The notes below the pieces were generated by a model. It made no database searches and had not been told where the DNA came from. It was given only the letters and a program-made list of their open reading frames with translations. A DNA stretch of 64,000 nt from a virus: positions 1 to 64,000 of IMG/VR virus record IMGVR_UViG_3300018916_000001. One strand, 5' to 3'. Within the stretch, counting starts at the first letter, position 1; every line of letters begins with the position of its first letter. A program made the position numbers and the translations under genes. Below, piece by piece: positions 10,174 through 39,217 of the stretch.

Positions 10174-10245
10174 TTTTCTATACTCCTTTATATTAATTGA
10201 GTTTTAGCTCTGATAATCATTAGTTACCAGAGCCATTCCTTCTTA

Positions 10246-11385: not shown

Positions 11386-11460
11386 AATTTTTAGGGTTAG
11401 ATACTTGAACAAACTACTTTACTTAAGACTTTTATGGATAATCTTAGAGATAAAGTAAGA

Positions 11461-14036: not shown

Positions 14037-15092
14037 TTATTGCTGTTTGATGAAGATTACTTTATCTTCTGGAAAATCTTTATATCCACTACTCCATCTA
14101 TCCCAATAATCAGGATGAATAGCGTATAAAAAGCTAACTTGACTAGACCAAGGAAATCTAAGTGTATCGAACTTATATCCTTTACTTTTTAGATACTCTT
14201 CAAGTTCTTCTTGATGTAGAGAAACTAAACGTTCTAGATTTCTAATGTTTGCTAGTAAATCTTTTTCATCTACTTTCTCTCTAAATGCTTTCTCAATCGC
14301 ATCTTTAAAGTGCCACTTGACACTACCTTGAGGAAAAATCTTAGAAGTACCAATAAACCAAATACCATCTTTTACTATTTCAAGTTCATAACCTTTGTAC
14401 TCAATTTTCGTTGGTTTTGAGTATTCATTCACTGCTTCTTGAAAATAGCTCACTACCAAAGTGTCTAAATAGTGATATCCTGATTTCTCAAAATTAATGG
14501 CTTCACATTTACCATGCCAAAGAATTTCATTTGTTGTCTTCTCCTTCTCTTGCCAGACTTCTAAAGTGAAATCATTGTAAACCACAGAAAATTGATTAAT
14601 TATCTTTTTGTCTACAAATTTAGGAAAATCTTCCATTAGAAAGCTTAAAGTTGTAGCACCTACAAAATACTCTAACTCTTTACATTCTCCATTAAATAGA
14701 GCATGATTGAATTTGGAAACAATTAGTTCGTAACCTTTGTGAGTAATGTTCATATTCTTCTCCAAATGTTTGTCCACTTTATCTAGAAAAGCAATGGTCA
14801 AGTCATCTATGTAATGTTCCTCTTCAAATCCAATTTCTTTGCAAACACCTGTATAAGTATGAACCATATATTCAATCTCTAAAGTAAATCCTCTATAGAT
14901 TAACTTCGATGGATCACGCTTATATGTCAATTGCTTTTTTGCTAAGTATGCACAAAATGGAAATAATAAAGAATCAATAGAAGAATGCTTCTCCACGTTA
15001 AATCCTACTTTTTTACATTTAGCAGAATAACCTTCTTTAGATTCTTCAACTTCTAAATTGAAAATACCCATGACCAATGTGAAATTTCTCAT
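14037..15092 (-). CDS. Four-repeat HicB-like-domain protein
   Basis: Four to five ~60-residue units with the pattern Y-x-G-Y-x-L-E-I ... G-x-C-K-E-x-x-F ... L...F...V-D: YRGFTLEIEYMVHTYTGVCKEIGF, HKGYELIVSKFN...GECKELEYF, YNDFTLEVWQEK...GKCEAINF, YKGYELEIVKDG. The layout resembles the HicB antitoxin RNase-H-like fold without the partner HicA. The C-terminus has another shared module (LKSKGYKFD...YAIHPDYWDRW...KVIFIKQ). Related single or multi-copy proteins lie at 15156, 34114, 37577 and 38603. Function unknown. Confidence 0.75.
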   Translation of the reverse strand: MRNFTLVMGIFNLEVEESKEGYSAKCKKVGFNVEKHSSIDSLLFPFCAYLAKKQLTYKRDPSKLIYRGFTLEIEYMVHTYTGVCKEIGFEEEHYIDDLTIAFLDKVDKHLEKNMNITHKGYELIVSKFNHALFNGECKELEYFVGATTLSFLMEDFPKFVDKKIINQFSVVYNDFTLEVWQEKEKTTNEILWHGKCEAINFEKSGYHYLDTLVVSYFQEAVNEYSKPTKIEYKGYELEIVKDGIWFIGTSKIFPQGSVKWHFKDAIEKAFREKVDEKDLLANIRNLERLVSLHQEELEEYLKSKGYKFDTLRFPWSSQVSFLYAIHPDYWDRWSSGYKDFPEDKVIFIKQQ

Positions 15093-15155
15093 GATGTTCT
15101 CCTTCTCTGAATAGTGCGTGTTGAATTAGCTAGGTTAGTTACTTCCTACGTTGAG

Positions 15156-15548
15156 TTAAAAAATACGAACTACAGCCCATTTAGGAAACTCAGCATTCTT
15201 ATTCTTTTGAAATACCTCTTCATACTCAGGATTAACTGCACATCGATAGTTACCCTGATTACCTGGGATTGTATAAGTGTAAAAAGAATAGCCTAGTCCT
15301 CTCAGATAATCTTCTAGTCGGTCTTGTTTTTCCCATACTTCTTGCTGATATTGAAGTATTTTTTCTAATGCTGCTTTACGTTTATTTTTCTCTATCCTAT
15401 CTACAAAATCCATGAAACTCGTGATTAATGAACCAATATCGTCGTATCTATCAGAATAATGAAGTTTTTCACAATATCCACGGCAATTAGATTCATCGAA
15501 AGTAACAATCAATTCGTAACCTTCATGGGAAAATTTAGACTGTGACAT
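15156..15548 (-). CDS. Single HicB-like-domain protein
   Basis: 130 residues. The N-terminal half is one HicB-like unit (HEGYELIVTFDESNCRGYCEKL...SLITSFMDFVDRI). The C-terminal half has the shared module L-x-x-L-G-Y-x-F...CAVNPEYEEVF...FPKWAVVRIF, also seen at 14037, 34530 and 40703. It appears to be a short version of the 14037 protein next to it, so a local duplication is likely. Confidence 0.75.
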   Translation of the reverse strand: MSQSKFSHEGYELIVTFDESNCRGYCEKLHYSDRYDDIGSLITSFMDFVDRIEKNKRKAALEKILQYQQEVWEKQDRLEDYLRGLGYSFYTYTIPGNQGNYRCAVNPEYEEVFQKNKNAEFPKWAVVRIF

Positions 15549-15565
15549 AATGTTTTCCTTTTGTT

Positions 15566-15790
15566 TTAGTTAAACTTCAAATTCTGTCGAAGTAAATTGA
15601 TATATTGTCTTCTCGTTAACTCTACTGCTACTCCAATGTGTTTAATCTCAGGAAAATCTTTCTTGACTACTACAAAGCTATATTCCTTACCAATCGTGTC
15701 ATGTGACCAACCAAAATCTGCCCAATCTCCAGTAGTATGACCTGAGCGACATTCATAACCTTGATCAATTAATTGAGATTTAGTGTCCAT
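15566..15790 (-). CDS. Small hypothetical protein
   Basis: 74 residues: TKSQLIDQGYECRSGHTTGDW then GKEYSFVVVKKDFPEIKHIG. Looks like a small alpha/beta domain. AGGAGAAT precedes the ATG. Unknown. Confidence 0.7.
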   Translation of the reverse strand: MDTKSQLIDQGYECRSGHTTGDWADFGWSHDTIGKEYSFVVVKKDFPEIKHIGVAVELTRRQYINLLRQNLKFN

Positions 15791-15889
15791 GATATTCTCC
15801 TAAAGTTAAAGTGAAATGTTCTACTTAGGACTTCAACCTAAGAATGAGGCAAACTCATAGAACTCCAGTAGACTAACTACTATGAGAAA

Positions 15890-16420
15890 TTACCGATCAA
15901 AAACTTCACTTATCTTTCCATGAAAAACTAAAGAAGGTAAGCTATCATCTTTGACATAAACAAGCCAATTGAAAAACCCCATCAAGTCCATTCCTTCTAA
16001 TTTCTTATGCTCCATGAAATCTTTAAGAGAATCTACAAGTCTTAGATATTCACCACTTAAAGCTACCGCATCATCAAACTCGGGACTAATAAATACTACT
16101 CTTAACTTTCTAGGTTGAATTATTGAATTAACTAATTCTTCAGCAGTAGAATAAGTTTCTCCCCAACTTTGATATTCAATATCTACGTTATCTCTAATTT
16201 CCCAAGTATTTTCCTCTAGTCTAGTAATTCCTAACTTAACCATTCTTCCTCTAAAATAATCAATATACAAACCATCTTCATCTAGTTCAATATCATCTGT
16301 AGTTAATGGTACTCCTTTAAAATGTCTATCTTGATAAATACCCATGCCAACTACTTTACTTGCTTTAATGGCGTTGAGGGCAATCTGTTTTATTTGTTGT
16401 TCTGTTGCTGTAAAGTTCAT
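15890..16420 (-). CDS. Hypothetical protein
   Basis: 176 residues with an N-terminal helix (TEQQIKQIALNAIKASK), a strand-rich middle (GLYIDYFRGRMVKLGI, TWEIRDNVDIEYQSW), and a hydrophobic helix near the C-terminus (GFFNWLVYVK). Not a recognised family. It overlaps none of its neighbours but is 12 nt from the next gene. Confidence 0.7.
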   Translation of the reverse strand: MNFTATEQQIKQIALNAIKASKVVGMGIYQDRHFKGVPLTTDDIELDEDGLYIDYFRGRMVKLGITRLEENTWEIRDNVDIEYQSWGETYSTAEELVNSIIQPRKLRVVFISPEFDDAVALSGEYLRLVDSLKDFMEHKKLEGMDLMGFFNWLVYVKDDSLPSLVFHGKISEVFDR

Positions 16421-16431
16421 ATTCTTGACTC

Positions 16432-16638
16432 CTAACTATCTTCTTCTATTTGTGTACTTGAATATTGTGTGTTAGATACTCCTGCATTTCTAGCTGCTTC
16501 TCGAATATCAGATTCAGAGACATTATTAGAGACAAACACTTGACTATTTATTGCTACTGAGTTCTCTAACTTACTAGAGATTTTCTTAGCTATTTCATCT
16601 GTATCACAAAAAACTCTTAGCTCTGATTTATTCGACAT
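16432..16638 (-). CDS. Small hypothetical protein
   Basis: 68 residues from ATG 16636-16638 (MSNKSELRVFCDTDEIAKK), overlapping the end of the 16628 gene by 11 nt. The serine/asparagine-rich C-terminus (VSNTQYSSTQIEEDS) is probably disordered. Unknown. Confidence 0.65.
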   Translation of the reverse strand: MSNKSELRVFCDTDEIAKKISSKLENSVAINSQVFVSNNVSESDIREAARNAGVSNTQYSSTQIEEDS

Positions 16639-17104
16639 TTTCTTCATCCTCAATAAAATATGGATCTGTAAGTTCTGACCAGTTTATTACCAAAAAATCA
16701 GGATATTTAGTATCTCTCCTTTTGTTATAGTCTTTTTGGTTTTCCTTCCATTCGTCTAAGACTTGAGAGTGAACTGCAAATTCTGTTGGTACTCCTCTAT
16801 AATTTCTATCATCAACAAAGATATACTCTTCACTTATTAAGAAATCTCTTAGAAATGAGTAAAGAGATTCTAATGATTCCTTAGTCTCTTTTATTTTAGT
16901 AATTTGATTTCCAATCTTAACTGAAACTGGTAATTTCAATTCTATTTCTTGTTTTAACTCTCTTTTTGCATCTAATTGAGTTTCTAGCCAGTTTTTCCAC
17001 TCTTCTATTAACTTATAATCTCCTAATCTTTCAATAACTCTAATATGTTCTCTTGTTTCTTCAATAGATTTGTTAAGCTCTGATAGTCGTTCTTGAGAAT
17101 TCAT
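16628..17104 (-). CDS. Coiled-coil hypothetical protein
   Basis: Residues 1-60 are a strong amphipathic helix (QERLSELNKSIEETREHIR, WLETQLDAKRELKQEIEL). The C-terminal half carries a variant of the shared module seen in several window proteins: YIFVDDRNYRG...FAVHSQVLDEW...YPDFLVINWSE. Function unknown; coiled coil suggests oligomerisation. Confidence 0.7.
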   Translation of the reverse strand: MNSQERLSELNKSIEETREHIRVIERLGDYKLIEEWKNWLETQLDAKRELKQEIELKLPVSVKIGNQITKIKETKESLESLYSFLRDFLISEEYIFVDDRNYRGVPTEFAVHSQVLDEWKENQKDYNKRRDTKYPDFLVINWSELTDPYFIEDEENVE

Positions 17105-17121
17105 AATAGCTCTCTCTCTCC

Positions 17122-17541
17122 TTAAGATTCAGCCAAACGTTTATACACTTCTTCTCTTTCTTTTAGAGACTCTTCATAAACTTGTTCTACTGAATCTCCT
17201 TTCCCTCCCCAATTAAAAGACCAGTTAATAGGTAATTCCTCATAACTAAGGTTCAATAATTTTCTAATCGAAGAAGCACGATAATACTTACAACTAGCTA
17301 ATATACAAACTTTAATATATAAACCGTTACCCTCAAAATAATAATCTAACTCTTTTTCATAAGTTGCCCTATCAAAACACTTAAAAACTTCTGCTGAATA
17401 ATACGTTTTTCCAAACATTTTTATAGGTGAAGCAAAATAACTATTTAAATGTCTATCAAACATTCCCTCCATATCTACTCTACTTATAGGTTTTAGTCTT
17501 CTTTTTATTTCTATACACTGAGATGGAGTAAGATTTAACAT
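17122..17541 (-). CDS. Hypothetical protein
   Basis: 139 residues from ATG at 17539-17541 (MLNLTPSQCIEIKRRLKPI). Aromatic-rich middle (NSYFASPIKMFGKTYYSAE). No family recognised. The start lies within a few bases of the end of the 17547 gene, suggesting coupled translation. Confidence 0.7.
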   Translation of the reverse strand: MLNLTPSQCIEIKRRLKPISRVDMEGMFDRHLNSYFASPIKMFGKTYYSAEVFKCFDRATYEKELDYYFEGNGLYIKVCILASCKYYRASSIRKLLNLSYEELPINWSFNWGGKGDSVEQVYEESLKEREEVYKRLAES

Positions 17542-17546
17542 TTTTA

Positions 17547-26444: not shown

Positions 26445-27164
26445 TTAAATGAAATAATCGTAATAAACATCTCTACCATATTTATCTTTAAATCCAAGAA
26501 CACCCACAGTTCTACCAAATTCTTTAATAGGTTTGCTAAGTGGTATAGGTGAATAGATAGGATATAACGTACCATCTGCACTCATATTAGCTTCCATTAC
26601 ATACCAATTAAAATCATAAAGATCAGGTATAAAAGCTTTAGTTCTTTCGCTATAACCATAAAACTCTAAATTATAATCATTATCTACATAACCAACTTTT
26701 ATATACTCATTAGTTTTTAGATTCTTCTTATAAACCTTTCTAGTAGGATTATCTAATGGCAATCCTATATTTTTCTCTTCAACTACTATATCTATCTCGT
26801 TCTGACTCGTAACGGGAGATAAAAGTTCAATCAATTTATCTAACTTCTTAATAACTAAATCTAACTTATCCACTTTAGGTTCTCTCCTTTTTTCTACTCT
26901 ATTAGCTATATCATATAAAACTTTATTAATATCACTAGCCACATTTTTATCTTCACTTCTTACATTAATAGGTGAGTTAATAACTACGGGATTATCTAAT
27001 TTCTTCATTAGAGTCTGAATATGACCTAAAACACTATCTACTGTATGAGCTATATTATCTTGACTTTCTAGTATTTGATTTCTCATTTCTCGTTGATTTA
27101 GATATAAAACTACTAATCTATCTAATATATCTTTACCTTCAAAATCTCTTAGTTTATCATTCAT
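26445..27164 (-). CDS. Family-B paralog with N-terminal coiled coil
   Basis: 239 residues. Residues 1-110 are helical (FEGKDILDRLVVLYLNQREM, VDKLDLVIKKLDKLIELL). The C-terminal 110 residues belong to a family repeated in this window: KVYKKNLKTNEYIKVGYVD...LYDFNWYV...GFKDKYGRDVYYDYF, i.e. YK-x-T-x-x-x-x-V-G ... Y-P ... G-x-x-D...YYDQY. Relatives lie at 27315, 28374, 28742, 30079, 30932 and 36247. Probably a local expansion; function unknown. Confidence 0.75.
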   Translation of the reverse strand: MNDKLRDFEGKDILDRLVVLYLNQREMRNQILESQDNIAHTVDSVLGHIQTLMKKLDNPVVINSPINVRSEDKNVASDINKVLYDIANRVEKRREPKVDKLDLVIKKLDKLIELLSPVTSQNEIDIVVEEKNIGLPLDNPTRKVYKKNLKTNEYIKVGYVDNDYNLEFYGYSERTKAFIPDLYDFNWYVMEANMSADGTLYPIYSPIPLSKPIKEFGRTVGVLGFKDKYGRDVYYDYFI

Positions 27165-29056: not shown

Positions 29057-29336
29057 CTAACTTCTTTCTTATTTTCTTGCCATCTTGATTTGTATATTCA
29101 TAATAAAAGTACCCATCTATCAAATAAATGTTTTGACCTTCAGGAACTCTCACCTTTCTATCTTGTGGAGTTTTACACTTCTCTAATAAATATTCAGTAG
29201 CAATAAACGCATCATCAATAACCTCTCTCAATTCTTCTTGAGTTAAAGCTCTACTCTTATTAATAAATGTACAAGTAAATTGAGTAGCGGTTTGTAATCT
29301 CAATAACTCAATTGGACTGTAATCATATTCATTCAT
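29049..29336 (-). CDS. Small hypothetical protein
   Basis: 95 residues: LLRLQTATQFTCTFINKSRA, a helix AFIATEYLLEKCKTP, and a C-terminal beta hairpin NIYLIDGYFYYEYTNQDGKK. No family recognised; part of the coupled operon. Confidence 0.7.
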   Translation of the reverse strand: MNEYDYSPIELLRLQTATQFTCTFINKSRALTQEELREVIDDAFIATEYLLEKCKTPQDRKVRVPEGQNIYLIDGYFYYEYTNQDGKKIRKKLGE

Positions 29337-29461
29337 ATTACTTTCTTCCTTAATAATCTATCTACTAAACTCTGAGCTTCTTTTTTATCGGGGTCTTTGT
29401 AAATATGTCCCTTATCTTCTCTTATCTCTACAAGTTCTAACCCAATTTCTTCATTATTCAT
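29333..29461 (-). CDS. Small ORF, 42 aa
   Basis: MNNEEIGLELVEIREDKGHI then YKDPDKKEAQSLVDRLLRKK. Its TGA overlaps the start of the 29336 gene, and its ATG overlaps the end of the frameshifted gene upstream. Highly charged; unknown. Confidence 0.65.
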   Translation of the reverse strand: MNNEEIGLELVEIREDKGHIYKDPDKKEAQSLVDRLLRKKVI

Positions 29462-29612
29462 AAATGTTTCTCTTCTTTTCTTAATGTAGCTAATAGTTTT
29501 TCTGCTAAATCTTCATATCTCTTAATAAAGACAGTCTTAGCATATCTCTAGTATAAGTAGACTCCAGATTTAATTGATCTAACCATTCTCTAAAATGTTG
29601 ATATTGAGTCAT
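29458..29612 (-). pseudogene. Small gene with one-base frameshift
   Basis: The ATG frame reads MTQYQHFREWLDQLNLESTY then TRDML and stops early. The -1 frame continues as KTVFIKRYEDLAEKLLATLR to a TGA that overlaps the next ATG. A single missing A in CTAAGACT (near 29540) restores a 51-residue protein. The overlap with both neighbours supports a formerly intact gene. Confidence 0.6.
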
Positions 29613-29613
29613 A

Positions 29614-30015
29614 CTAAATCCCTATTAAAATAAAATCTTTACTACCATCAATAATCTTATCAAGAGGTAACTCTTCTACATCAAACCATTGAATTTTACT
29701 TACACTACTATCTCCATAAGTAATTTCTCCATCTAACTTAATACATTCATAACAGAGAAGTAATATTTGGATCTGAGTAGACTTTCCATTTCCCTTCTTC
29801 ACTAGAGAATATACTAAAGGAATCATTCTTACGTCTACTACATCATAACCAGTCTCTTCTTTAACTTCTCTAATTGCGGTATGAGAGGGACATTCACCAA
29901 ACTCAACTTTCCCTCCTGGTAACTCCCATTTATCAGGTACTCCTTTCCTTTGAGTTAGGAGTATCTTACCTTCATGAATCACTAAACCTAATGAGACTAT
30001 TATTTGCTTATTCAT
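29614..30015 (-). CDS. Nudix hydrolase (MutT-like)
   Basis: 133 residues with a complete Nudix box, GGKVEFGECPSHTAIREVKE then ETGY (G-x5-E-x7-REUXEEXGU), at ~33-56, preceded by LVIHEGKILLTQRKGVPDKW. Expected to hydrolyse nucleoside diphosphate-X compounds, for example oxidised dNTPs or other nucleotides, in the cytosol. Substrate not determinable. The stop is TAG. Confidence 0.9.
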   Translation of the reverse strand: MNKQIIVSLGLVIHEGKILLTQRKGVPDKWELPGGKVEFGECPSHTAIREVKEETGYDVVDVRMIPLVYSLVKKGNGKSTQIQILLLCYECIKLDGEITYGDSSVSKIQWFDVEELPLDKIIDGSKDFILIGI

Positions 30016-30040
30016 ATACTAATAATTAACTAAAAAAATT

Positions 30041-30064
30041 AAAAAGCTCCCAATGAAGAGAGCT
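30041..30064 (-). terminator. Intrinsic terminator
   Basis: Minus-strand AGCTCTC pairs with GGGAGCT (7 bp, one G-U), loop 6 nt, followed by TTTTTAATTTTTTT. It lies between the 30079 gene and the Nudix gene. Confidence 0.7.
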
Positions 30065-30078
30065 ACTAACTTATCTAT

Positions 30079-30546
30079 CTACTCTCCTAAATATTGGTCA
30101 TAATAAAAGACTTCTCCATCATTCGTCACATAGCCCGTTGGATCATTTAAGTTCTTATTAAATATTTCAGTAGCATCTTTAAGTACAAAATTATCTAACT
30201 CAGTAAATCTTAAATAATTACCTTCTAGCTCTAAAGTATAAAATCCATTATTATACCATTCAGGATGTTCTATTAACTCACTCATCTTAATCTTAGGAAT
30301 ATTAAAGACAATTACGTTATCTTCTTTAAGAAAACCTACTTTTATAAATCCAGAAGAATAACCAGTATTTCTCTTATACACGTCTTTATAAACTAAAGTC
30401 TTATCTTTATAACGGTCTACATATTGATACGGCTCTTTAGGTCTTGGTTTGCGAACTGTTACTTCCTCTTTCTTATCTGTTACTAAAGCTTTCAAGATTG
30501 TATTTAGCTCGGTACTTAACTTATCTAATTTACTTTCAATACTCAT
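30079..30546 (-). CDS. Family-B paralog
   Basis: 155 residues from ATG 30544-30546 (MSIESKLDKLSTELNTIL), chosen because GAGGAG lies upstream; an ATG six codons earlier is possible. After a short N-terminal coiled coil come the family-B features: LVYKDVYKRNTGYSSGFIKV, then VGFLKEDN, HPEWYNNGFYTLE, and TGYVTNDGEVFYYDQYLGE. Very like the copy at 30932. Confidence 0.75.
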   Translation of the reverse strand: MSIESKLDKLSTELNTILKALVTDKKEEVTVRKPRPKEPYQYVDRYKDKTLVYKDVYKRNTGYSSGFIKVGFLKEDNVIVFNIPKIKMSELIEHPEWYNNGFYTLELEGNYLRFTELDNFVLKDATEIFNKNLNDPTGYVTNDGEVFYYDQYLGE

Positions 30547-30547
30547 A

Positions 30548-30706
30548 TTATTTACTCTCCTCATTCTTATCTACTTTTATTGATATCTTTGTTTGATTAC
30601 TAGAACTATAGCTATAGTCATCAATTGATAAACCCTTTAATAATCTATCTCTCAGTAAATCATGAAATTCTTTAACTGTCATCTCTTTATCTGTATAGAG
30701 AGGCAT
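30548..30706 (-). CDS. Small ORF, 52 aa
   Basis: MPLYTDKEMTVKEFHDLLRD then RLLKGLSIDDYSYSSSNQ. Ends two bases before the start of the 30079 gene and begins inside the 30687 gene. The charged helix and operon position support it. Unknown. Confidence 0.6.
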   Translation of the reverse strand: MPLYTDKEMTVKEFHDLLRDRLLKGLSIDDYSYSSSNQTKISIKVDKNEESK

Positions 30707-30926
30707 TTCTCTTATCTCCTTCATATTTATCTCTCATCATCTTTGACCATCTACCAAAAGAATTCATACGTCTTTTATCTTCTTTTAGTCGATTTAACTG
30801 TTGAGCAATGATTCTCTTATCTCTTAACTCATTAATCGCTTTTAATATTGGGTCATTTAGTAATTCTTTAAGATGTTCACAATTCTCTTTCTGCCACTCA
30901 TTTAAATAATCTGCTATAACTCCCAT
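30687..30926 (-). CDS. Small basic hypothetical protein
   Basis: 79 residues, helical and basic in the second half (RIIAQQLNRLKEDKRRMNSF, MMRDKYEGDKRNASLYR). Could bind nucleic acid, but no motif. AAGATG precedes the start. Six bases from the 30932 gene. Confidence 0.65.
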   Translation of the reverse strand: MGVIADYLNEWQKENCEHLKELLNDPILKAINELRDKRIIAQQLNRLKEDKRRMNSFGRWSKMMRDKYEGDKRNASLYR

Positions 30927-30931
30927 CTTTC

Positions 30932-31345
30932 TTATCCTTCAATATACTGATCATAATAAACTGCTATTCCATTTTTATCTACGTAACCAGTAACTAGATA
31001 ATCATTAGGTTCCAAAAATGTACTTCCACTAAGACTAACTAACTGAGTAGGCATATTCTTAGGAGTAAATACTTTCTTATAATAACCACTAATCACTGTC
31101 TGAGGTGGTTCATATTCTCTCTTTACTACATTACCTTCATCATCTAATATATCTTTCCATCTAGTAACTTCTCTAATATCTTCTTGCTCAATATAAAACT
31201 CAGGATAAAATAACTGAGGCATTACATTCCCTATTGATTCATAAGTAGGAACATCAAACTCTAAATAACCATATTCATCTACTTGACCTACTTGAATGAA
31301 CTTTTCTGTATTTTGAACTTTCTTGTATACTGGTTTAGTTGTCAT
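30932..31345 (-). CDS. Family-B paralog
   Basis: 137 residues: KPVYKKVQNTEKFIQVGQVD, EYGYLEFDVPTYES, QLFYPEFYIEQED, then YLVTGYVDKNGIAVYYDQYI. This is the clearest complete example of the family: YK...T-E-K...VGxxDxxGYLEF...YPEFYI...GYVDxxGxxVYYDQY. AAGGAAGATAA precedes the ATG. Function unknown. Confidence 0.75.
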   Translation of the reverse strand: MTTKPVYKKVQNTEKFIQVGQVDEYGYLEFDVPTYESIGNVMPQLFYPEFYIEQEDIREVTRWKDILDDEGNVVKREYEPPQTVISGYYKKVFTPKNMPTQLVSLSGSTFLEPNDYLVTGYVDKNGIAVYYDQYIEG

Positions 31346-31350
31346 TCTAT

Positions 31351-31725
31351 TTATCTTCCTTTAATTAATGTATGTTCAATCATTTTACGCAATAGTATAT
31401 TCTCAGGTTCTTCTATTCTTAGATACTCAAAGTTACTCTCTACGTCATCCCAATCTCTAAGAACTTTCTCTTGTACATAATACTCTCTATCCTCTTTACT
31501 TAAATTAATCTCTATACCTTCCACTGCTTCATAATAAAACTGGATATTACCCGACTTAAAATGCTCAGTATTTCTAAGTACAAAATAATTCCAGTCTATC
31601 AATATTACCGTTAGAGGATTGTCAGGATTGAATGATTTACCTAACTTCTCTTCATTTAAGAATTTACCTAGAGATACTCCACTAACACTTTTACCTGTGA
31701 ATAATGCTGAATAAGTTTTTGTCAT
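31351..31725 (-). CDS. Hypothetical protein
   Basis: 124 residues: TYSALFTGKSVSGVSLGKFL, LTVILIDWNYFVLRN, and a helical C-terminus (EYLRIEEPENILLRKMIEHT). First gene after the promoter at 31751. No family recognised. Confidence 0.7.
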   Translation of the reverse strand: MTKTYSALFTGKSVSGVSLGKFLNEEKLGKSFNPDNPLTVILIDWNYFVLRNTEHFKSGNIQFYYEAVEGIEINLSKEDREYYVQEKVLRDWDDVESNFEYLRIEEPENILLRKMIEHTLIKGR

Positions 31726-31750
31726 TTACTTTCTATTAACTCTTAGTTTG

Positions 31751-31756
31751 ATTATA
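31751..31756 (-). promoter_or_regulatory. TATAAT -10 box for the 31.7 to 26.4 kb operon
   Basis: A perfect minus-strand TATAAT lies 26 nt upstream of the ATG at 31725, with no clear -35. It is positioned to drive the minus-strand run of small genes. Confidence 0.45.
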
Positions 31757-31782
31757 ACACAAGCAGGTAATGAGTAGTGTAG

Positions 31783-32002
31783 TTAAGATAATAATGCTAC
31801 ATCTTCATTAGTATCTAGATAATATTTATACTGATAAAAAGTAAAAGAATTGTCTAGCCCTAACAATATATTCCGAATTAGCTCATTACTGCTATGAACA
31901 AACCAAATCCGCTAGGACGCGGTTCTCGCGAATAGGAAGATTACCTAAAATTGAGTCTTCCCATAATTCTAAATACTTATCAATATATTTTAGATTTTTC
32001 AT
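31783..32002 (-). pseudogene. Frameshifted small gene
   Basis: From ATG 32000-32002 the frame reads MKNLKYIDKYLELWEDSILG then NLPIRENRVLA before degenerating. The +1 frame continues as RIWFVHSSNELIRNILLGLD and QYKYYLDTNEDVALLS to TAA 31783-31785. The switch is near 31911 at CCTAGCGG. One extra base explains it. About 73 codons. Unknown family. Confidence 0.55.
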
Positions 32003-32135
32003 ATATCACGGTAATAGTCCTTTAACACAAATCTATATTCTCTAATTTTTAGTGGCAAAGTTCCTATATACTAGCTAATAAAGTGTTTTAAAGCTAATTG
32101 GATAGGAGTAGTCTTACCCTTTTTTATTTCTAAAC

Positions 32136-32194
32136 TGTGGAGTTTTTTTCCAAAATGAACTATAATAAATATAGAAATCAATAAAAATTCCACA
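32136..32194 (+). promoter_or_regulatory. Promoter flanked by TGTGGA/TCCACA inverted repeat
   Basis: TATAAT at 32161-32166 (33 nt before the helicase ATG) sits between TGTGGA (32136-32141) and TCCACA (32189-32194). The same inverted repeat follows the gene at 33958-34006. The arrangement suggests an operator or a looped RNA; no repressor is identified. Confidence 0.5.
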
Positions 32195-32198
32195 ACTT

Positions 32199-33956
32199 AT
32201 GAAAAATACAATTGTCACAACTGAAGACCAAAAATACTTATCTGACGTTTTAAACGAACTTCCAATAGGTATTCTTAATAAAACTCAATGTAACGTAGGC
32301 GGTTCACACTTAGCCCTTAACTCCCCTGATAATTACCTCATAGTAGTTCCGACTAGGGATTTAATAGATAATAAGTTAGCAAATCCTGCTAATAGCAAAT
32401 ACGAACTGTTTGGTATTTATGGAGGAGTAACTAACAAACAATTTAAAGATTATATAAAGAGAAATACTAAACATCACATTTTAGTTACCTATGATTCTTT
32501 ACCTAAGCTAATTAAATGGTTAAGTGCTTTAGGTATAAATGCTTACGAGTATAAAGTTCTATTTGACGAATATCATATGCTTCTTACTGAAATGGGGTAT
32601 AGATATAAAGCTATTGAGAACTTAGTAAAAGAAGCTAAGAACTTTAAGCACTATACTTTTATGAGTGCTACACCTATTCCAGAGAAGTTCCTTCCAAAGA
32701 TACTAGCTGACTTACCTTACACAGAAATAAAATGGACTAATACTAAAACTATCCTCCCTACTAGATTCTGTAGTCCTAATGTATATCAAACAACGGTTAG
32801 ATTATTAAAAGAGTTAGAGAATGGATTAGACGGAATAGAGATAAAAGAACGTTTCATTTTTACTAATACGGTTATTGGCATTAAGCAAATATTAGACAGT
32901 GCTGAACTTAATCCTGAAGAAGTTAAGGTAGTTTGCTCTAACACTATAAGAAATCAACAAGTCCTAGGTAATTACGAAATATCTACAATGACTGGAGAGA
33001 ATAAGAAATACAACTTCTTTACTTCCAAAGGATTTCAAGGATGTGATTTATTTAGTAAGTCTGGTTTGTGTATTGTAGTAAGCGACTCAAAAAAGAAACA
33101 TACATTAACTGATATTCAAACTACCTTATATCAAATCAGTGGACGTATTAGAGATATTGATAACTTGTTTGCAGATAGAATATTTCATGTCTATTCCACT
33201 GGTTATGTAACTCAGACTAAAGAAGAATATGAAGCAGAGAAACAAGAATTAATAGACGAAGCACTAATGATTCTCGAAACTCAAAATAGTTTATCTGAGA
33301 AATCTAGAATTGCTTATGCTAAAAGACTTAATATAGATAACGACTTTATTATCTTTGATGAAGAAACAAAAACTTATGATTATTCCGAACTAAAAGAGAA
33401 GTTTGCTGATTTCAACTATGAACTTACTCAATATACTTATACCAATGGATTATCTATTAGAAAAGCTTATGAAGATTCTGGTATTAAAGCAGGTAATCAG
33501 ATACAAACATATTTAGCAGATAAAGATACTCAATTAGTTAAACGAGTGACAAAAGTAGGTTTTAAGATTTTATTAGAACAATATATTGAGTTAAGAGAAA
33601 AGAATAGAAAAGAAGATGCTGAGTTAATTAGTAGATACGAACTAGAACATCCAGTATTTAAAGATGCGTATGATAAGCTAGGTACAAAAATTATTAATAG
33701 CTGTAAATTTGTAGAAAAGAATATATTAGAAAAGTTATACTCTACTAGCAATAGTTCTGAAAACGCAATTAAAGAGTTACTAAGAGCTAAATATAAGAAA
33801 GGAGATATAGTACCTGTTAAAGAAGCAAAAGCTGAACTACAAAATATTTATAATACTTTAAAAATCAAATCTAAAGCCAAAGCTACTGAACTAAGTAAAT
33901 ATTTACCCGTAGAAACTGTCAAAGGTAGAAGTCATAACTCAGTAAGGTTTTTATAA
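32199..33956 (+). CDS. SF2 DEAD/DEAH-like helicase or translocase
   Basis: 585 residues. Helicase-like motifs in order: a deviant motif I, NKTQCNVGGSHLAL (~27-40, lacking the usual GKT); motif Ia-like YLIVVPTRDLI; motif II DEYH (~123); motif III SATP (~156); motif VI-like QISGRIRD (~313). The C-terminal 250 residues are helical, unassigned. The gene stands alone on the plus strand among minus-strand genes, with its own promoter and matching inverted repeats on both sides. Likely a DNA or RNA translocase; ATP binding by the odd motif I needs checking. Confidence 0.75.
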   Translation: MKNTIVTTEDQKYLSDVLNELPIGILNKTQCNVGGSHLALNSPDNYLIVVPTRDLIDNKLANPANSKYELFGIYGGVTNKQFKDYIKRNTKHHILVTYDSLPKLIKWLSALGINAYEYKVLFDEYHMLLTEMGYRYKAIENLVKEAKNFKHYTFMSATPIPEKFLPKILADLPYTEIKWTNTKTILPTRFCSPNVYQTTVRLLKELENGLDGIEIKERFIFTNTVIGIKQILDSAELNPEEVKVVCSNTIRNQQVLGNYEISTMTGENKKYNFFTSKGFQGCDLFSKSGLCIVVSDSKKKHTLTDIQTTLYQISGRIRDIDNLFADRIFHVYSTGYVTQTKEEYEAEKQELIDEALMILETQNSLSEKSRIAYAKRLNIDNDFIIFDEETKTYDYSELKEKFADFNYELTQYTYTNGLSIRKAYEDSGIKAGNQIQTYLADKDTQLVKRVTKVGFKILLEQYIELREKNRKEDAELISRYELEHPVFKDAYDKLGTKIINSCKFVEKNILEKLYSTSNSSENAIKELLRAKYKKGDIVPVKEAKAELQNIYNTLKIKSKAKATELSKYLPVETVKGRSHNSVRFL

Positions 33957-33957
33957 G

Positions 33958-34006
33958 TGTGGATTTTCTTTATTTCTATAAGATGAGTTTGGAAAATAAT
34001 TCCACA
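33958..34006. terminator. TGTGGA/TCCACA inverted repeat after the helicase
   Basis: TGTGGA (33958-33963) and TCCACA (34001-34006) with inner TTTTC/GAAAA complementarity. It begins 2 nt after the TAA. It mirrors the repeat upstream of the gene, so it could be a terminator or a second operator. Confidence 0.5.
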
Positions 34007-34083
34007 TAATCCTAATAACTCTTCCCCAAATAACTAAAATAATATAAAATAGCAAAAAAATACTAGCTATCTTACTATTATGT

Positions 34084-34089
34084 TATAGT
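34084..34089 (+). promoter_or_regulatory. TATAGT -10-like box
   Basis: TATAGT on the plus strand, 25 nt upstream of the ATG at 34114. No clear -35. Confidence 0.35.
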
Positions 34090-34113
34090 ATAGGAAATTA
34101 ACTAAAAAATATT

Positions 34114-34524
34114 ATGGACTTACAAATTTGTTACAAAGGTTACGTATTAAAAGTAGAAATTATACGGATGACTGGTTATAAAGATAAATTTAGGTTAAAA
34201 GGTTTATGTAGAGAAGTCGGGTTTGAGTTTGTTAGTGAGATGGATGAAAATGCTTTAGATAGGTTGAAAGATAGATTTAGAGAACAAGTAGATTATTATT
34301 TGGAAGAGTCTTACGCATTAAAGTTAAGTGAATTAATAAAGCTGCTAGAAACAAATCCCAAATATGTAGAAAGAGTTTTAGAAAGTTTAATTATTAAAGA
34401 AAGAGACAATACATCTCTATTAGAAGTAGCACTATTTTATACAAAAGCTAAAGATATAAGCCCAGAAAATAGTATCATTATTAGTAGAATCGAGAAAAAG
34501 TATACTGCAAATAAAGGAGAATAA
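34114..34524 (+). CDS. Single HicB-like-domain protein
   Basis: 136 residues. Residues 1-65 are one HicB-like unit: CYKGYVLKVEIIRM...RLKGLCREVGFEF...DRFREQVDYYLEES. The C-terminal half is helical (KLSELIKLLETNPKYVERVL). A plus-strand copy of the family otherwise seen on the minus strand (14037, 15156, 37577, 38603). Function unknown. Confidence 0.7.
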   Translation: MDLQICYKGYVLKVEIIRMTGYKDKFRLKGLCREVGFEFVSEMDENALDRLKDRFREQVDYYLEESYALKLSELIKLLETNPKYVERVLESLIIKERDNTSLLEVALFYTKAKDISPENSIIISRIEKKYTANKGE

Positions 34525-34529
34525 AAATT

Positions 34530-35186
34530 ATGGCAATTACAACTGAAATGGAAATTCGTCTTTTACACGAAGACATTGCTCGATTACATAAAGCAACTAA
34601 GACTGAAGATAAAAAGAAGAGAATTAAAGCTATCAAAGAAAGAAATGAGTATTTGAATGGTAGAGGTTATAAAGTAATCAACGTAAAAGATATTAATGGA
34701 TATCATATTACTTATGCAATTCACGAGTATTTATTTGATGACTCAGTAATGCAAGGTAGAGAAAAAGATGAAGATAATGAAGAACCTGATTGGGCAATTA
34801 TTGAGTTAGGTGCTTATTACTTCGATGAAGAGAAGCATAATTATGAAGGATTGACAGTTAGCTTAATGGGAATCAAACAAGTAACAGACGAAGAGTTAGA
34901 AAAATTATCTGAGTCAGAACAGTTGTTTATTAAAGAGATACGTGAACCTAACCGAATGATTCCTATTGGAGTTATTCACGGTGACATGATTGAATTGCAA
35001 GGTATAAGCGGTGAAGTAGTTAAAGATTATGAAGAATTTTTAGGGCTTAGTAGTAAACTTTCTAAATTTATATTGTCAGATGAGATGGTAGAAGAATTAT
35101 TCTATCCTGAATATTACACTGTGGATAAGGAAGGGAATTACAAAGAACTAGATAAAGATACAGCCTATTTCTTTGTAGGTCAGTAG
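34530..35186 (+). CDS. Hypothetical protein with shared GY/IHEY/WAII module
   Basis: 218 residues. Residues 1-90 contain a helical start, then EYLNGRGYKVINVKDINGYH, YAIHEYLFDDSVM, and EEPDWAIIELGAYYF, the same module as in 14037, 15156 and 40703. The remainder (GVIHGDMIELQGISGEVV...FYPEYYTVDKEGNYKEL) may be a second strand-rich domain. Five nt after the 34114 gene, so co-transcribed. Unknown. Confidence 0.7.
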   Translation: MAITTEMEIRLLHEDIARLHKATKTEDKKKRIKAIKERNEYLNGRGYKVINVKDINGYHITYAIHEYLFDDSVMQGREKDEDNEEPDWAIIELGAYYFDEEKHNYEGLTVSLMGIKQVTDEELEKLSESEQLFIKEIREPNRMIPIGVIHGDMIELQGISGEVVKDYEEFLGLSSKLSKFILSDEMVEELFYPEYYTVDKEGNYKELDKDTAYFFVGQ

Positions 35187-35194
35187 TCAATAAA

Positions 35195-35215
35195 AAAGCT
35201 GGCTCCAAATACCAG
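35195..35215. terminator. AGCTGG/CCAGCT terminator between convergent genes
   Basis: A perfect 6-bp stem with a 9-nt loop; on the minus strand it is followed by TTTTTT. It lies between the plus-strand 34530 gene and the minus-strand 35306 gene. Confidence 0.65.
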
Positions 35216-35305
35216 CTAATTATAGAAAAAACAAGCACAAACGTCATGAATCAAAAACAACACACAGTCCTAACATCTAAGACCATAAATTTATTATAAC
35301 AGCTT

Positions 35306-35650
35306 TTAACAAAAATAACTAATTAATCCTACTAATATTGTTTTTTTACCGTCTATATAGTAAGTAATATAGGGAACATAATTAGACGGAAGTAAAAGAT
35401 TAATTCTTCTAGTAAGAGTGCTATATTTAATATTACAGATCATTTCACAAATCATAGATCTAATATAGTGTAATAAGTCATATTCTTCACTATTGTCAAT
35501 ACTTAAACTTATTTCTGATTTAGAGATTAAAGCCTCAGCAGGTATAAATGTTTCTTCTATAAAACTAAAATGATGATTTGTATAATTATTTAGTTCTTCT
35601 TTTAAAAGTTCTAGTTGTAGGTCAACAGAAAGTAACATATTAGTTTTCAT
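35306..35650 (-). CDS. Family-D paralog
   Basis: 114 residues. The C-terminal part, IRSMICEMICNIKYSTLTRR then INLLLPSNYVPYITYYIDGK, and KTILVGLISYF, matches two other window proteins (35730 and 39517): a helix, then a strand ending in LLP, then Y-I-x-x-x-x-x-V/I-x-x-G/Q-x-x-x-Y/F. Unknown function. Confidence 0.7.
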   Translation of the reverse strand: MKTNMLLSVDLQLELLKEELNNYTNHHFSFIEETFIPAEALISKSEISLSIDNSEEYDLLHYIRSMICEMICNIKYSTLTRRINLLLPSNYVPYITYYIDGKKTILVGLISYFC

Positions 35651-35672
35651 AGCTTTATCGTTAAAATTAATA

Positions 35673-35703
35673 AAGAGGTAAGATTGTTTATGTCCTACCT
35701 CTT
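35673..35703 (-). terminator. Hairpin AAGAGGTA/TACCTCTT
   Basis: Minus-strand AAGAGGTAGGA pairs with TCTTACCTCTT (11 bp, one G-U), followed by TATTAATTTT. It precedes the 35730 gene and follows the start region of the 35306 gene. The stem sequence resembles the hairpin at 36758. Confidence 0.6.
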
Positions 35704-35729
35704 CAGGTATTTATTTAGTTATCAGTTAA

Positions 35730-36143
35730 CTATTGGTCATTAAAGTAAAGACTTACAAAACCAGCTAATATCACTCTATCGTCTTGAATGTAAGTACATA
35801 TATAACGTGTAAAATGTGGAGCTTCAGGTAATAAAACAATAACTTCTTTTGTGTTACGTTTTCTACATTCTTCTATAATACCTTCTACTAAACCATTTAA
35901 TATACGTTCAACATCACTGTTTAAATATGTTTTGTCATTTTCGTAAGCTTGCTCAAATTTATGATTTTCTTCTACATCCCAAGCCATTCCTAGTTTTATA
36001 GTCTTTCGTATATCTGGGACACAATCAGTAAAAATGAATTTATATTCTCCGTTAGTTAATATATCTACTCTTCGTTTTATAAAGAATATTTGATCACTAA
36101 ATTCTGGAAGATTCTTTTCAATGTAAGAAATATCAATAGTCAT
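35730..36143 (-). CDS. Family-D paralog
   Basis: 137 residues: helix NGLVEGIIEECRKRNTKEVI, strand VLLPEAPHFTRYICTYIQDD, and RVILAGFVSLYFND. The layout matches 35306 and 39517 (IxECxR...xILLP...YI...VIxGFxxxY). The N-terminal half is strand-rich (GEYKFIFTDCVPDIRK). Unknown. Confidence 0.7.
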   Translation of the reverse strand: MTIDISYIEKNLPEFSDQIFFIKRRVDILTNGEYKFIFTDCVPDIRKTIKLGMAWDVEENHKFEQAYENDKTYLNSDVERILNGLVEGIIEECRKRNTKEVIVLLPEAPHFTRYICTYIQDDRVILAGFVSLYFNDQ

Positions 36144-36217
36144 AAATTTTTATTATTATTGGTAACGTTATTACTTAATTGTAACTCATTTCTATACTAC
36201 TTCTTATCTACTTGTGC

Positions 36218-36223
36218 TATAAT
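36218..36223 (+). promoter_or_regulatory. Extended -10 promoter (TGC-TATAAT)
   Basis: TGCTATAAT on the plus strand, about 24 nt upstream of the ATG at 36247. An extended -10 compensates for the lack of a clear -35. It supports the upstream start of the frameshifted 36247 gene. Confidence 0.5.
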
Positions 36224-36246
36224 ATAAGAAATTTGTAGACGACAAT

Positions 36247-36722
36247 ATGCCAAATAGAGAAAATGAAAAAATAAAAATATAGCACTAACCAGAATACTTG
36301 AGACAGTTAACTTGTTAGAAGACAATATAAAAGATGAATTAGTTAACCACCTACTCTCAAATAAAAAACTAAGAGATGTAACTACTGTATACAAATTAAA
36401 TATAGCTACTGAGAAAATGCTAGCTGTTGGTACTGTAGAATATCATATTGGAGAGAAAGATTATGTGCTAACTTTATTTCCAGATCCAACAGAGAAAATG
36501 AAAGGTATTACTTCTCTTAAAGACGCTAAGCCATATTACCCAGATTGGTATATTGAAGATGGCAAGGGAGGATATAAAAAGATTATTCCAATTAACAATC
36601 CTCAGCAAGTATACATAAATAGTGAAAAAGAAATTGTATCTATTGGTATTATCAGTGATTATCTAAGTGTTCAACTATTTAGTAATTATGAGCAGATGGA
36701 TAGAAATAATCGAAGATACTGA
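36247..36722 (+). pseudogene. Family-B paralog with a frameshift near its start
   Basis: From ATG 36247 the frame reads MPNRENEKIK and stops at TAG. The -1 frame continues as NIALTRILETVNLLEDNIKD and then a full family-B domain: TVYKLNIATEKMLAVGTVEY, KPYYPDWYIEDGKGGYKK, VSIGIISDYL. The switch is in an A-run (GAAAAAATAAAAA, ~36265). The downstream open frame alone has only a TTG start at 36312. Promoter TATAAT upstream fits the ATG. One missing A restores a ~158-residue protein. Confidence 0.65.
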
Positions 36723-36757
36723 GATAAACAAGTGGTTAAATAAAATTCAATAAATAA

Positions 36758-36791
36758 TTAGAGGTAAGAGAATTATAACTCCTACCTCTTT
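36758..36791 (+). terminator. AGAGGTA/TACCTCT terminator
   Basis: A stem of AGAGGTAAGAG with CTCCTACCTCT and a TTTT tail on the plus strand, ~35 nt after the 36247 gene. Its stem shares the AGAGGTA sequence with the hairpin at 35673. Confidence 0.6.
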
Positions 36792-36799
36792 TAATATTA

Positions 36800-36985
36800 T
36801 TATAAGTTCAATACTCTTCCATCGCTATCGTAACAAGTATAGTAATACTCAGTAGAATTATTAATATACCAGTTAACTCCTTCTCATGTATTAGCTCCAA
36901 CTGTTTTATAGGCTTCTCCTACTTTAACTCTTTGACCGTCACTTACTCTATCTCGATAAACTTCACAATAGATTTTGTTACTCAT
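36800..36985 (-). pseudogene. Small gene with an in-frame TGA
   Basis: ATG 36983-36985 opens SNKIYCEVYRDRVSDGQRVK, then VGEAYKTVGANT, an in-frame TGA (36884-36886), then EGVNWYINNSTEYYYTCYDS and DGRVLNL to TAA. The protein-like content on both sides, in one frame, points to a TGG-to-TGA change, an error, or TGA read as tryptophan. 61 codons. AGGTAAAAATT upstream. Unknown family. Confidence 0.6.
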
Positions 36986-37050
36986 AATTTTTACCTTTTT
37001 AGTTTAATTTAGTTAGTAGATAAACTAGATATTATTAGGTAGAACTTACC

Positions 37051-37539
37051 CTATCGGATTCCATCAATAACGAAGCCATTTGGATATCTAGCTCCTAACT
37101 TTTTATTTAATATATCGAAACTATCTGATAAATCAAAGTTATTACTAATTAGTTTTAATGGTTCGATAAATCCATCTAATGAGCTAATATCTCTACTAGG
37201 ATAATCTCTAACGTATTTCTTAGCTTTCTCTAGAAAATACAAACTTTGATGTAAAGCTTCATATAATAATTCTGTACCATTAGCTGTAAACTCATACGTA
37301 TTGGAGAAGTTAATATTATCTAGTAGTTCTTCTTTACCTAACATAATACTAAGAGCTACAGTATACCAAACTATATCTGCCAACTCCATCTTAAAGTTTT
37401 CATCTGATACTTCATATTCATCTATTGTTTCTCCTATTTCTCCAACTAATCCCATTGAGTAAATAGCAATAGTAAGTCTGTCGTTAACATCTAGATTGCT
37501 AGCAGTTGTCTTAACTAAATTAATCAATTGGTCTTTCAT
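37051..37539 (-). CDS. MazG-like nucleotide pyrophosphohydrolase
   Basis: 162 residues. The MazG/dUTPase-like all-alpha NTP-PPase motif is present: GLVGEIGETIDEYEV (E-x-x-E) followed after ~10 residues by ENFKMELADIVWYTVALSI (E-x-x-D). The C-terminal 70 residues add a second helical half. Such phage enzymes hydrolyse (d)NTPs or ppGpp-like nucleotides and may reset host metabolism. Substrate is inferred only by family. Confidence 0.85.
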   Translation of the reverse strand: MKDQLINLVKTTASNLDVNDRLTIAIYSMGLVGEIGETIDEYEVSDENFKMELADIVWYTVALSIMLGKEELLDNINFSNTYEFTANGTELLYEALHQSLYFLEKAKKYVRDYPSRDISSLDGFIEPLKLISNNFDLSDSFDILNKKLGARYPNGFVIDGIR

Positions 37540-37576
37540 AGTTTTATCTACTTCCTTCTTAAAATTACAAATCTAT

Positions 37577-38599
37577 CTATTTATTAGAAAATCTCATAAA
37601 GTAAAAAGTCTTAAAACTATCAAATGAAGTTAAATGTAAAATATCTTTAGCTTTCTCATATAGCTTACCTAATTTAATATCTAGTACAAGTGAATAATTA
37701 GAATTATCTTTCAACTTCTCTATATCTTTATTGATTTTGGTTAGAGCATAGATAAAGTCTTCTGCCATAACTAAATCTTCATCTTTCTCTTTATCATTCT
37801 TTAAGCGAGTATCAACAGCTTTCTTAAATTCATTCATTATATGGTCTATTCCTGCTGAACTCATATAGTAGAATCCAGTTTCTTTACATTCAGCGATACA
37901 CATCCGATAATCTATACTGTGTTTTAAATGTAGAATAAATCCTTCATAGTACCATTCTGAAGAATCTCCCATTTTTATAACGTCATTCATATTACTCTTA
38001 TTTTGATTTAGTTGTTTATCTATCCATTGTTGGAATTGCTCTACTAAACTATTTAAACTACTACAAGTACCTATTCTAGGGATGAAGTTTGTGTCACATT
38101 TATATTTACTAACTTGATTAATATAAGGATCGTAGCTATCAATAGTTAAAGTCTGACCTTTATATTCAACTACTAGATTCATTAAATGATTTGAATTAGC
38201 AATATTAAATTTATCTACATGACCTTTATGCCAGTGAAGAACTCTTTCTAGAGATTCATTAGAGATTTTAATTGGACTTGAATATACATCTCCAGTTAAA
38301 ATACATCTGAAGTATTGACTATCATCTTCTTTAGTCTCGGACGAGCATTGACGAGTAATTTCTACTGAATAGCCTTTATAAGTAGAAGTAATTTTCATCA
38401 TAGTTTTATTATCTAACTTTTTATCTACTGCTTTCTTAAACTCAGAAATTATATAATCTATTCTTCCAAATGTCTTGTAGTAAATATCTAGTTCTTTACA
38501 TTCTACAATAACATAGCAGGATGAAGTAGTTTTTAAAGATAAAATAAAACCTTCGTAATGGTACTCTGAAAATTTAACGATTTCTATTAGGTCATTCAT
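37577..38599 (-). CDS. Four-repeat HicB-like-domain protein
   Basis: 340 residues with four HicB-like units: YHYEGFILSLKTTSSC...ECKELDIYY...FKKAVDKKL, TYKGYSVEITRQ, EYKGQTLTIDSY...FQQWIDKQL, and YYEGFILHLKHSIDY...ECKETGFYY...FKKAVDTRL. The first and last are near-duplicates. The C-terminus (EDFIYALTKINKDIEKL...YSLVLDIKLGKLYEKA...SFDSF) is shared with the 38603 protein. No HicA toxin is next to it. Function unknown. Confidence 0.75.
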   Translation of the reverse strand: MNDLIEIVKFSEYHYEGFILSLKTTSSCYVIVECKELDIYYKTFGRIDYIISEFKKAVDKKLDNKTMMKITSTYKGYSVEITRQCSSETKEDDSQYFRCILTGDVYSSPIKISNESLERVLHWHKGHVDKFNIANSNHLMNLVVEYKGQTLTIDSYDPYINQVSKYKCDTNFIPRIGTCSSLNSLVEQFQQWIDKQLNQNKSNMNDVIKMGDSSEWYYEGFILHLKHSIDYRMCIAECKETGFYYMSSAGIDHIMNEFKKAVDTRLKNDKEKDEDLVMAEDFIYALTKINKDIEKLKDNSNYSLVLDIKLGKLYEKAKDILHLTSFDSFKTFYFMRFSNK

Positions 38600-38602
38600 T
38601 TA

Positions 38603-39217
38603 TTATTTATTTCCTATATTTAAATACTGTTTCTTTACATCTTCAAGAGTCAAACCTAAAGTCTCATGATACTCTTCATATACCTCATTTAATTTAGTCT
38701 GATTATCTCTTTTAATCACCAATAATTGATTAAAGTATTCTCTATTAGATCTTTCTTTCTTCTCTTCTTCTTTTTTAGTTTGGAGATAAGAATAATAATC
38801 AATGAAAGATTCAAATGAGCTACTAGGCATTACTTTATCTCGATATTCGTCATAAACTCTCTTAAGTTTTACGGATAGAACCGTACCGGAATATTCATCT
38901 TCTTCTAGTAAGTTCATTTCTTCAGCTACTTTGTCTAGCTTGGAGATAAATTCCTTAACTAATTCTGCGTCTTTATCCATTGGAGTATTTTTATTTCCTA
39001 TTGGATTATTTAATGGAACCTCCTTTTCTTTTTTAGACTTTTGATAATTTACCTCTCTTTTAAAGCTACTAATTATATTAGTCAAATCAGTTTTATAAAT
39101 ATCTTGCGGAAGATAAGGAAGTTCATTACATTTAGTTTTATAGAGAGTAGTTTTACCTGTGTCATAATCTGTAACTTCTTCAATTTCTAGAACGTAACCT
39201 TCATGTTCAATTTTCAT
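38603..39217 (-). CDS. HicB-like domain plus shared helical module
   Basis: 204 residues. N-terminus: EHEGYVLEIEEVTDYDTGKT, then TKCNELPYLPQ...NIISSFKREV, the closest of all copies to canonical HicB (Y-x-G-Y...A-x-C-x-E-L-P). The middle, VKEFISKLDKVAEEMNLL...YSGTVLSVKLKRVYDEY...SSFESF, repeats the C-terminal module of 37577. The C-terminal 45 residues are coiled-coil-like. Adjacent to its multi-repeat relative by 3 nt. Unknown. Confidence 0.75.
   Translation of the reverse strand: MKIEHEGYVLEIEEVTDYDTGKTTLYKTKCNELPYLPQDIYKTDLTNIISSFKREVNYQKSKKEKEVPLNNPIGNKNTPMDKDAELVKEFISKLDKVAEEMNLLEEDEYSGTVLSVKLKRVYDEYRDKVMPSSSFESFIDYYSYLQTKKEEEKKERSNREYFNQLLVIKRDNQTKLNEVYEEYHETLGLTLEDVKKQYLNIGNK

Follow-up and report, generated by a model that had tools for sequence, protein, structure and literature searches.

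Toxin-less chains of HicB-like domains in a large tailed phage, possibly captured antitoxins directed at HicA

What use would a phage have for many copies of a domain that resembles the antitoxin of a HicAB toxin-antitoxin pair, with no toxin beside them? The question is raised by a 64,000-base stretch (the window) that forms bases 1-64000 of the 151,199-base virus record IMGVR_UViG_3300018916_000001. A sequence-only reading had picked out five proteins here (14037, 15156, 34114, 37577 and 38603, named by first base), described them as carrying one to four tandem HicB-like units without a HicA toxin, and suggested that they could neutralise host HicA-type toxins or bind RNA. All five open reading frames (ORFs) are open at these coordinates and each bears the described unit; the tandem layout also holds, with the range corrected to one to five units, since 14037 has five. 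The record is that of a large tailed phage, probably with a cyanobacterial host, and contains terminase, capsid and tail genes. Sister phages were located through capsid and DNA polymerase: the contigs G001, G003 and G005 have capsids 78-99% identical to that of this phage (G003 and G001 are fragments), and G205 (150 kb) and G206 (147 kb) were added via the DNA polymerase.

Scanned as single sequences against Pfam, PHROGs, NCBIfam and PADLOC, the five proteins gave chance-level matches only, and a profile search of PDB sequences returned no true match. The silence of PF05534 ("HicB") is no evidence against HicB, because this model starts only where the toxin-binding domain ends. Compared profile to profile, the units aligned with a profile of 63 HicB N-terminal domain sequences across the whole domain (hhalign probability 96.7, P 4.5e-10, score 46.4; 200 column shuffles had a mean score of 8.5 and a maximum of 16, and the reversed profile scored 12.6). 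Units from the window alone reached a probability of 94.5 (0.2 when reversed, and 0.2 against HicA), and units from the sister phages alone reached 96.2 (about 1 or less when reversed). A hidden Markov model (HMM) of the units, searched against 2,920 ORFs of bacterial loci, placed HicB in all of the top 30 positions; reciprocally, a HicB HMM matched the units 108127 (2.5e-7) and 131926 (6e-5), and canonical HicB domains of the sister phages were reachable by BLAST from intermediate units. The signature Y-x-GY...G...F...VD is common to the units and HicB. These comparisons support homology between the units and the toxin-binding N-domain of HicB, and the HicB-like layout first seen by eye is borne out.

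The predicted fold agrees. An AlphaFold2 model of one window unit (nearly unit 3 of 14037), built from an alignment of phage units only, had a predicted local distance difference test (pLDDT) score of 94.2 and the order strand-strand-strand-strand-helix (EEEEH). In a structural comparison, 2yzt ranked third and crystal structures of the HicB antitoxins (6g1c, 6u0i, 6g1n and 3k6q) took ranks 4-7, at Z 4.8-5.1 and a root-mean-square deviation of 1.6-2.5 Å over about 50 residues (6g1c: Z 5.1, 1.8 Å over 50 residues). The fold is thus not one unrelated to HicB, and the modelled unit shows a moderate, not unique, likeness to the HicB N-domain, a partial RNase H fold. When the whole 351-residue chain of 14037 was modelled, four of its five units came out as EEEEH and the fifth did not resolve; the predicted template modelling score of 0.38 leaves the arrangement of units undefined, and a fold comparison with the entire chain was uninformative.

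The unit family reaches past the window into the rest of the record. All its ORFs were searched with an iterated profile, reversed sequences serving as decoys, and 28 units came out below E 0.01. A second profile, built from 44 sister-phage units and excluding both the sequences of this genome and canonical HicB, found 29 units in 17 ORFs of the 151-kb record, all five window proteins included (E 8.7e-24 to 7.9e-9; best reversed decoy 0.057). This sister-only profile is only partly independent, as the sister units were gathered by iterating from the units of this genome; the decoys control for that. One further candidate, 127434, was dropped at E 0.09 with the same profile. Among the sisters, G205 has 18 units, G206 about 20 (a listing of 23 counted three twice, one ORF spanning two fetched stretches), G005 four, and G003 and G001 one each. 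Single window proteins searched against viral contigs gave no match, nor was there any in the Pseudanabaena phages Pam2 and PA-SR01, and no four-unit orthologue was matched in any record of the named-phage collection. Across the Microcoleus order, 195 genomes gave no match to the unit profile, but the profile missed the known HicB there as well, and this null is weak evidence that the expansion is phage-specific.

The absence of a visible HicA, another point of the sequence-only reading, was upheld. PF07927 (HicA) found nothing in 11 related phage records, and nothing at E<=10 in five of these; a HicA profile made from bacterial partners likewise detected no HicA in the phage records. The same profile does find HicA beside HicB in three unrelated viral loci (L158, L159 and L161), and the detection therefore works. 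The adjacency to hicA that is usual for a HicB antitoxin was not seen in these records, nor did Pfam match a DNA-binding domain in the window proteins, the tested units or the sister copies.

How a phage might come by such domains is indicated by its sisters. Three of them carry a canonical HicB domain (G005 43427, E 4e-37; G206 42859, 2e-24; G205 150056, 6e-24), each stopping short of the DNA-binding half and lacking HicA. The G005 copy is 94% identical to a Microcoleus HicB over 67 residues, and its bacterial counterpart has a HicA gene (PF07927) upstream and a 3' part that runs into the DNA-binding part (PF05534). At the DNA level, G005 resembles Oscillatoriales hicB loci over a stretch that starts no more than about 50 bp 5' of the start codon and stops near codon 66, ahead of the DNA-binding part. 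In the 143-kb viral contig IMGVR_UViG_2854395284_000002 (L160), which is unrelated to this phage, about positions 1962-2204 share 98.4% DNA identity over 243 bp with bacterial and viral hicAB loci; the similarity ends at codon 68, just before the DNA-binding domain, the last hicA codons are apparently still present upstream, and no HicA was found in the record. Judged by these DNA similarities, L160 is a second, independent capture of the HicB toxin-binding domain. In both of these unrelated viral records the cut lies directly in front of the DNA-binding domain, which suggests that selection favoured neutralisation free of host autoregulation. What defines an antitoxin mimic, origin from or likeness to a bacterial antitoxin in the absence of the toxin gene, is found here both in the near-identical G005 copy and in the homologous window units.

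In HicB it is the N-domain that neutralises HicA, and acquisition of antitoxins, or of their mimics, is known among phages (reviewed in PMC11594946). We hypothesize that the chains are captured, duplicated and fused HicB antitoxin domains acting as HicA sponges in counter-defence, a reading that we put at slightly better than even odds (about 0.52). The phage lineage would have acquired HicB N-domains from bacterial hicAB loci, leaving the toxin and the DNA-binding domain behind; the captured domains would then have duplicated, diverged and fused into chains. During infection each unit would occupy an mRNA interferase of the HicA type in the manner of HicB itself, and because the operator-binding domain is absent, the units are proposed to neutralise the toxin without host operon repression or autoregulation. 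A chain of several units, and a large set of diverged ones, would increase the dose or serve against several toxins. We infer the direction of transfer, the binding of HicA, its timing and the benefit to the phage. Neutralisation of host HicA is plausible given that a sister carries a captured host HicB lacking the DNA-binding domain and that four Oscillatoriales genomes each have 3-11 HicA genes. A more elaborate version, in which the chains form a polyvalent antitoxin library of diverged HicB domains, with every domain adapted to its own HicA-type toxin of the host, strikes us as doubtful.

Several observations weigh against the sponge hypothesis. Identity to any functional HicB is as low as about 10-30% for most units, and HicA binding may therefore have been lost; with a mean net charge of -1.8, the units are also far less negatively charged than HicB N-domains (-7.8). 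The structure comparison gave matches of moderate strength, and since the top row of the comparison is an unrelated protein at Z 7.4, with the HicB rows at about 5, the fold supports but does not prove HicB identity. Truncated HicB genes also occur in bacterial contigs, so that truncation is not phage-specific and some captures may have been of genes that were already short. The host clues disagree as well: the nearest named phages by capsid protein are Pam2 and PA-SR01 (31% identity), which points to Pseudanabaena, while the host-like HicB in one sister would suggest Oscillatoriales.

The main rival makes use of these same facts. Diverged units may now bind other partners, and the units could be neofunctionalised HicB-fold adaptors for other host targets (other toxins, nucleases, or transcription or translation factors), only the canonical copies of the sisters still acting against HicA. 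The low identity, the weaker negative charge, the long insertions in several units, their fusion to other modules and the large lineage-specific expansion would all fit such adaptors, which we regard as a real, if minority, possibility; but a HicB profile still recognises intermediate units, and canonical and diverged forms stand side by side in the same phages. It is improbable, by comparison, that the units are the antitoxin or immunity part of novel phage pairs with a partner other than HicA, such as a second small module that we call "IHPxY". In 14037 and 15156 the module and units share one protein, in 34114/34530 the two are encoded side by side, and HicB-HicA fusions have been described (classes 11-13; PMC10865869). 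The module is missing, however, from most unit genes (37577, 38603 and those near 118 kb), and by profile it is unrelated to HicA or HicB (probability 1-3).

The suggestion that the chains bind RNA found no support, and we consider it very unlikely. The HicB domain is RNase-H-like, and the fold comparison returned some double-stranded RNA-binding domain structures with Z about 4, but these did not rise above the general background, 70% of units are acidic (median isoelectric point 5.5), and the ligand of the HicB N-domain is protein, not RNA. A chance pattern, or functionless repeats in decay, might be read from the rapid turnover between sister phages, yet this has next to no probability given the E values down to 1e-23 with the sister-only profile and clean decoys, the confident fold, and a ratio of nonsynonymous to synonymous substitution (dN/dS) between orthologous units of roughly 0.16-0.3, well below 1, albeit with dS near saturation. 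Orthologous units are under purifying selection.

The chains themselves retain traces of how they may have been assembled. In G205 the single-unit genes 100353 and 100181 lie near each other, as do 96668 and 97046 in G206, and the two halves of the two-unit protein 118397 of this genome are the counterparts of those genes (54-55% and 44-47% identity); further copies, 118808 and 118225, flank 118397 on either side. This suggests that chains arise by duplication and fusion of neighbouring genes, a direction that we infer from the sequences. Unit 3 of 14037 has a counterpart in G206_53204 (41% over 111 residues, 14037 region 90-190), where it is joined to other domains; this differently built protein shows that units move between chains. 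Taken alone, unit 1 of 14037 scores weakly with the sister-only profile (domain E 0.4), yet it folds as the others do.

The "IHPxY" module has the pattern "L..GY.F....Y.IHPxY...P.WAII.I" and is predicted to fold as helix-strand-strand-helix-strand. It is expanded in this genome, where it also stands alone (Table 1), and is present in the sisters G003, G205 and G206. No above-cut-off Pfam match was obtained for it in the scanned proteins. The idea that it is a hidden HicA was rejected at the level of profiles (probability 1.2 against the HicA profile), and a C-terminal HicA domain, as in the class 12 fused HicB-HicA proteins, was not found.

Table 1. Unit-bearing proteins, their HicB-like units and the "IHPxY" modules of the window (evidence column: E values are from the sister-only profile)
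Feature	Position	Strand	Description	Evidence
14037	14037..15092	-	351-aa chain: five HicB-like units and C-terminal "IHPxY" module	E 8.7e-24
14037 unit 1	14928..15089	-	residues 2-55	EEEEH, pLDDT about 90 in chain model
14037 unit 2	14757..14906	-	residues 63-112	profile and chain model
14037 unit 3	14601..14753	-	residues 114-164	nearly the unit modelled alone, pLDDT 94
14037 unit 4	14421..14600	-	residues 165-224	profile and chain model
14037 unit 5	14262..14408	-	residues 229-277	profile 5.7e-5; unresolved in chain model
14037 C-terminal module	14046..14246	-	helix-strand-strand-helix-strand; not HicA	
15156	15156..15548	-	130-aa protein: one unit and "IHPxY" module	E 7.9e-9
15156 unit	15381..15542	-	residues 3-56	profile
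15156 "IHPxY" module	15159..15359	-	residues 64-130	
"IHPxY" module alone	16628-17104	-		
"IHPxY" module alone	17547-17873	-		
34114	34114..34524	+	136-aa protein: one unit and helical tail	E 8e-10
34114 unit	34117..34311	+	residues 2-66	profile
34530	34530..35186	+	gene 5 bp 3' of 34114; "IHPxY" module as separate protein, residues about 25-94	
37577	37577..38599	-	340-aa chain: four units and helical tail	E 4.7e-21
37577 unit 1	38399..38566	-	residues 12-67	profile
37577 unit 2	38201..38389	-	residues 71-133	profile
37577 unit 3	38003..38173	-	residues 143-199	profile
37577 unit 4	37784..37954	-	residues 216-272	profile
38603	38603..39217	-	204-aa protein: one N-terminal unit and helical tail	E 1e-10
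38603 unit	39032..39217	-	residues 1-62	profile
"IHPxY" module alone	40703-41002	-		

Other genes of the record were noted in passing. A Thg1-type tRNA-His guanylyltransferase (117471-118220(-), locus L007; PF04446, 3e-30) lies amid the unit genes. Also in L007, a 286-residue protein with an HTH_3 helix-turn-helix DNA-binding domain, identified by Pfam (108634-109494(-)), ends in a C-terminal tail, "LFGDLLYLS...YFDR", that by eye resembles the helical tails of G003_56394, G206_88910, G206_53204 and G205_105301. A small-protein family ending in "...VG.VD..G...YYDQY" also appears expanded by eye, with members in the window at 26445, 27315, 28374, 28742, 30079, 30932 and 36312 and further ones in the record at 120394 and 121535. 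Elsewhere in the window, a MoxR-type AAA ATPase adjoins a vWA-domain protein (8815-11412(-)), both kept in G003, and a protein with one or more PAS domains (60362-61906(+); PF08447, 1.5e-16), kept in sister phages, stands amid structural genes. A Macro-domain protein (144226-144699(-), L009; PF01661, 5e-9) is a possible counter to ADP-ribosylating toxins.

The closest known relatives of the units are the HicB antitoxins of type II HicAB systems in Microcoleus and other Oscillatoriales (PF05534, COG1598/4226), which have a homologous N-domain with the same order of strands and helix. The phage units differ from them in lacking both the DNA-binding domain and an adjacent HicA, in standing in chains of up to five, and in having diverged so strongly that single sequences fall outside all family models. 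The small HicB of HicAB classes 1 and 2, one of them in a cyanobacterial phage, also lacks a DNA-binding domain but is paired with hicA (PMC10865869), whereas hicA was not found in this record. The Planktothrix phage PaV-LD similarly has a HicAB pair where we see toxin-less, expanded chains, and cyanophage HicB/HipB, in pairs with a toxin, has been proposed to keep the host from dormancy (PMC6293099). For a toxin sponge in counter-defence there are precedents. The pseudo-ToxI repeats and hijacked toxI of PhiTE (PMC3475682) are likewise host-derived, tandemly expanded antitoxin repeats directed against a defence toxin, although ToxI is an RNA of demonstrated function and the HicB chains are proteins of presumed function. 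AdfB of ICP1, which acts against DarT (PMC11481870), is also a phage antitoxin that comes without its toxin and counters a toxin-antitoxin defence of the host; unlike the HicB chains, it is a single gene, concerns another toxin family and has been established by experiment. By homology and the missing toxin, the HicB chains most likely belong with the phage antitoxin mimics, with HicA neutralisation as their predicted activity.

Genomic context has led to the proposal that HicAB takes part in phage defence, but physiological proof is lacking (PMC10865869, PMC11594946). That a phage lineage has captured and multiplied the toxin-binding half alone is a sign, coming from the phage, that HicA is a real threat, and the unit proteins are concrete reagents for testing HicAB in phage defence. 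If the sponge hypothesis is true, tandem protein antitoxin chains would join the known phage counter-measures; a polyvalent library, should the chains prove to be one, would be to protein what the expanding pseudo-ToxI repeats of PhiTE are to RNA.

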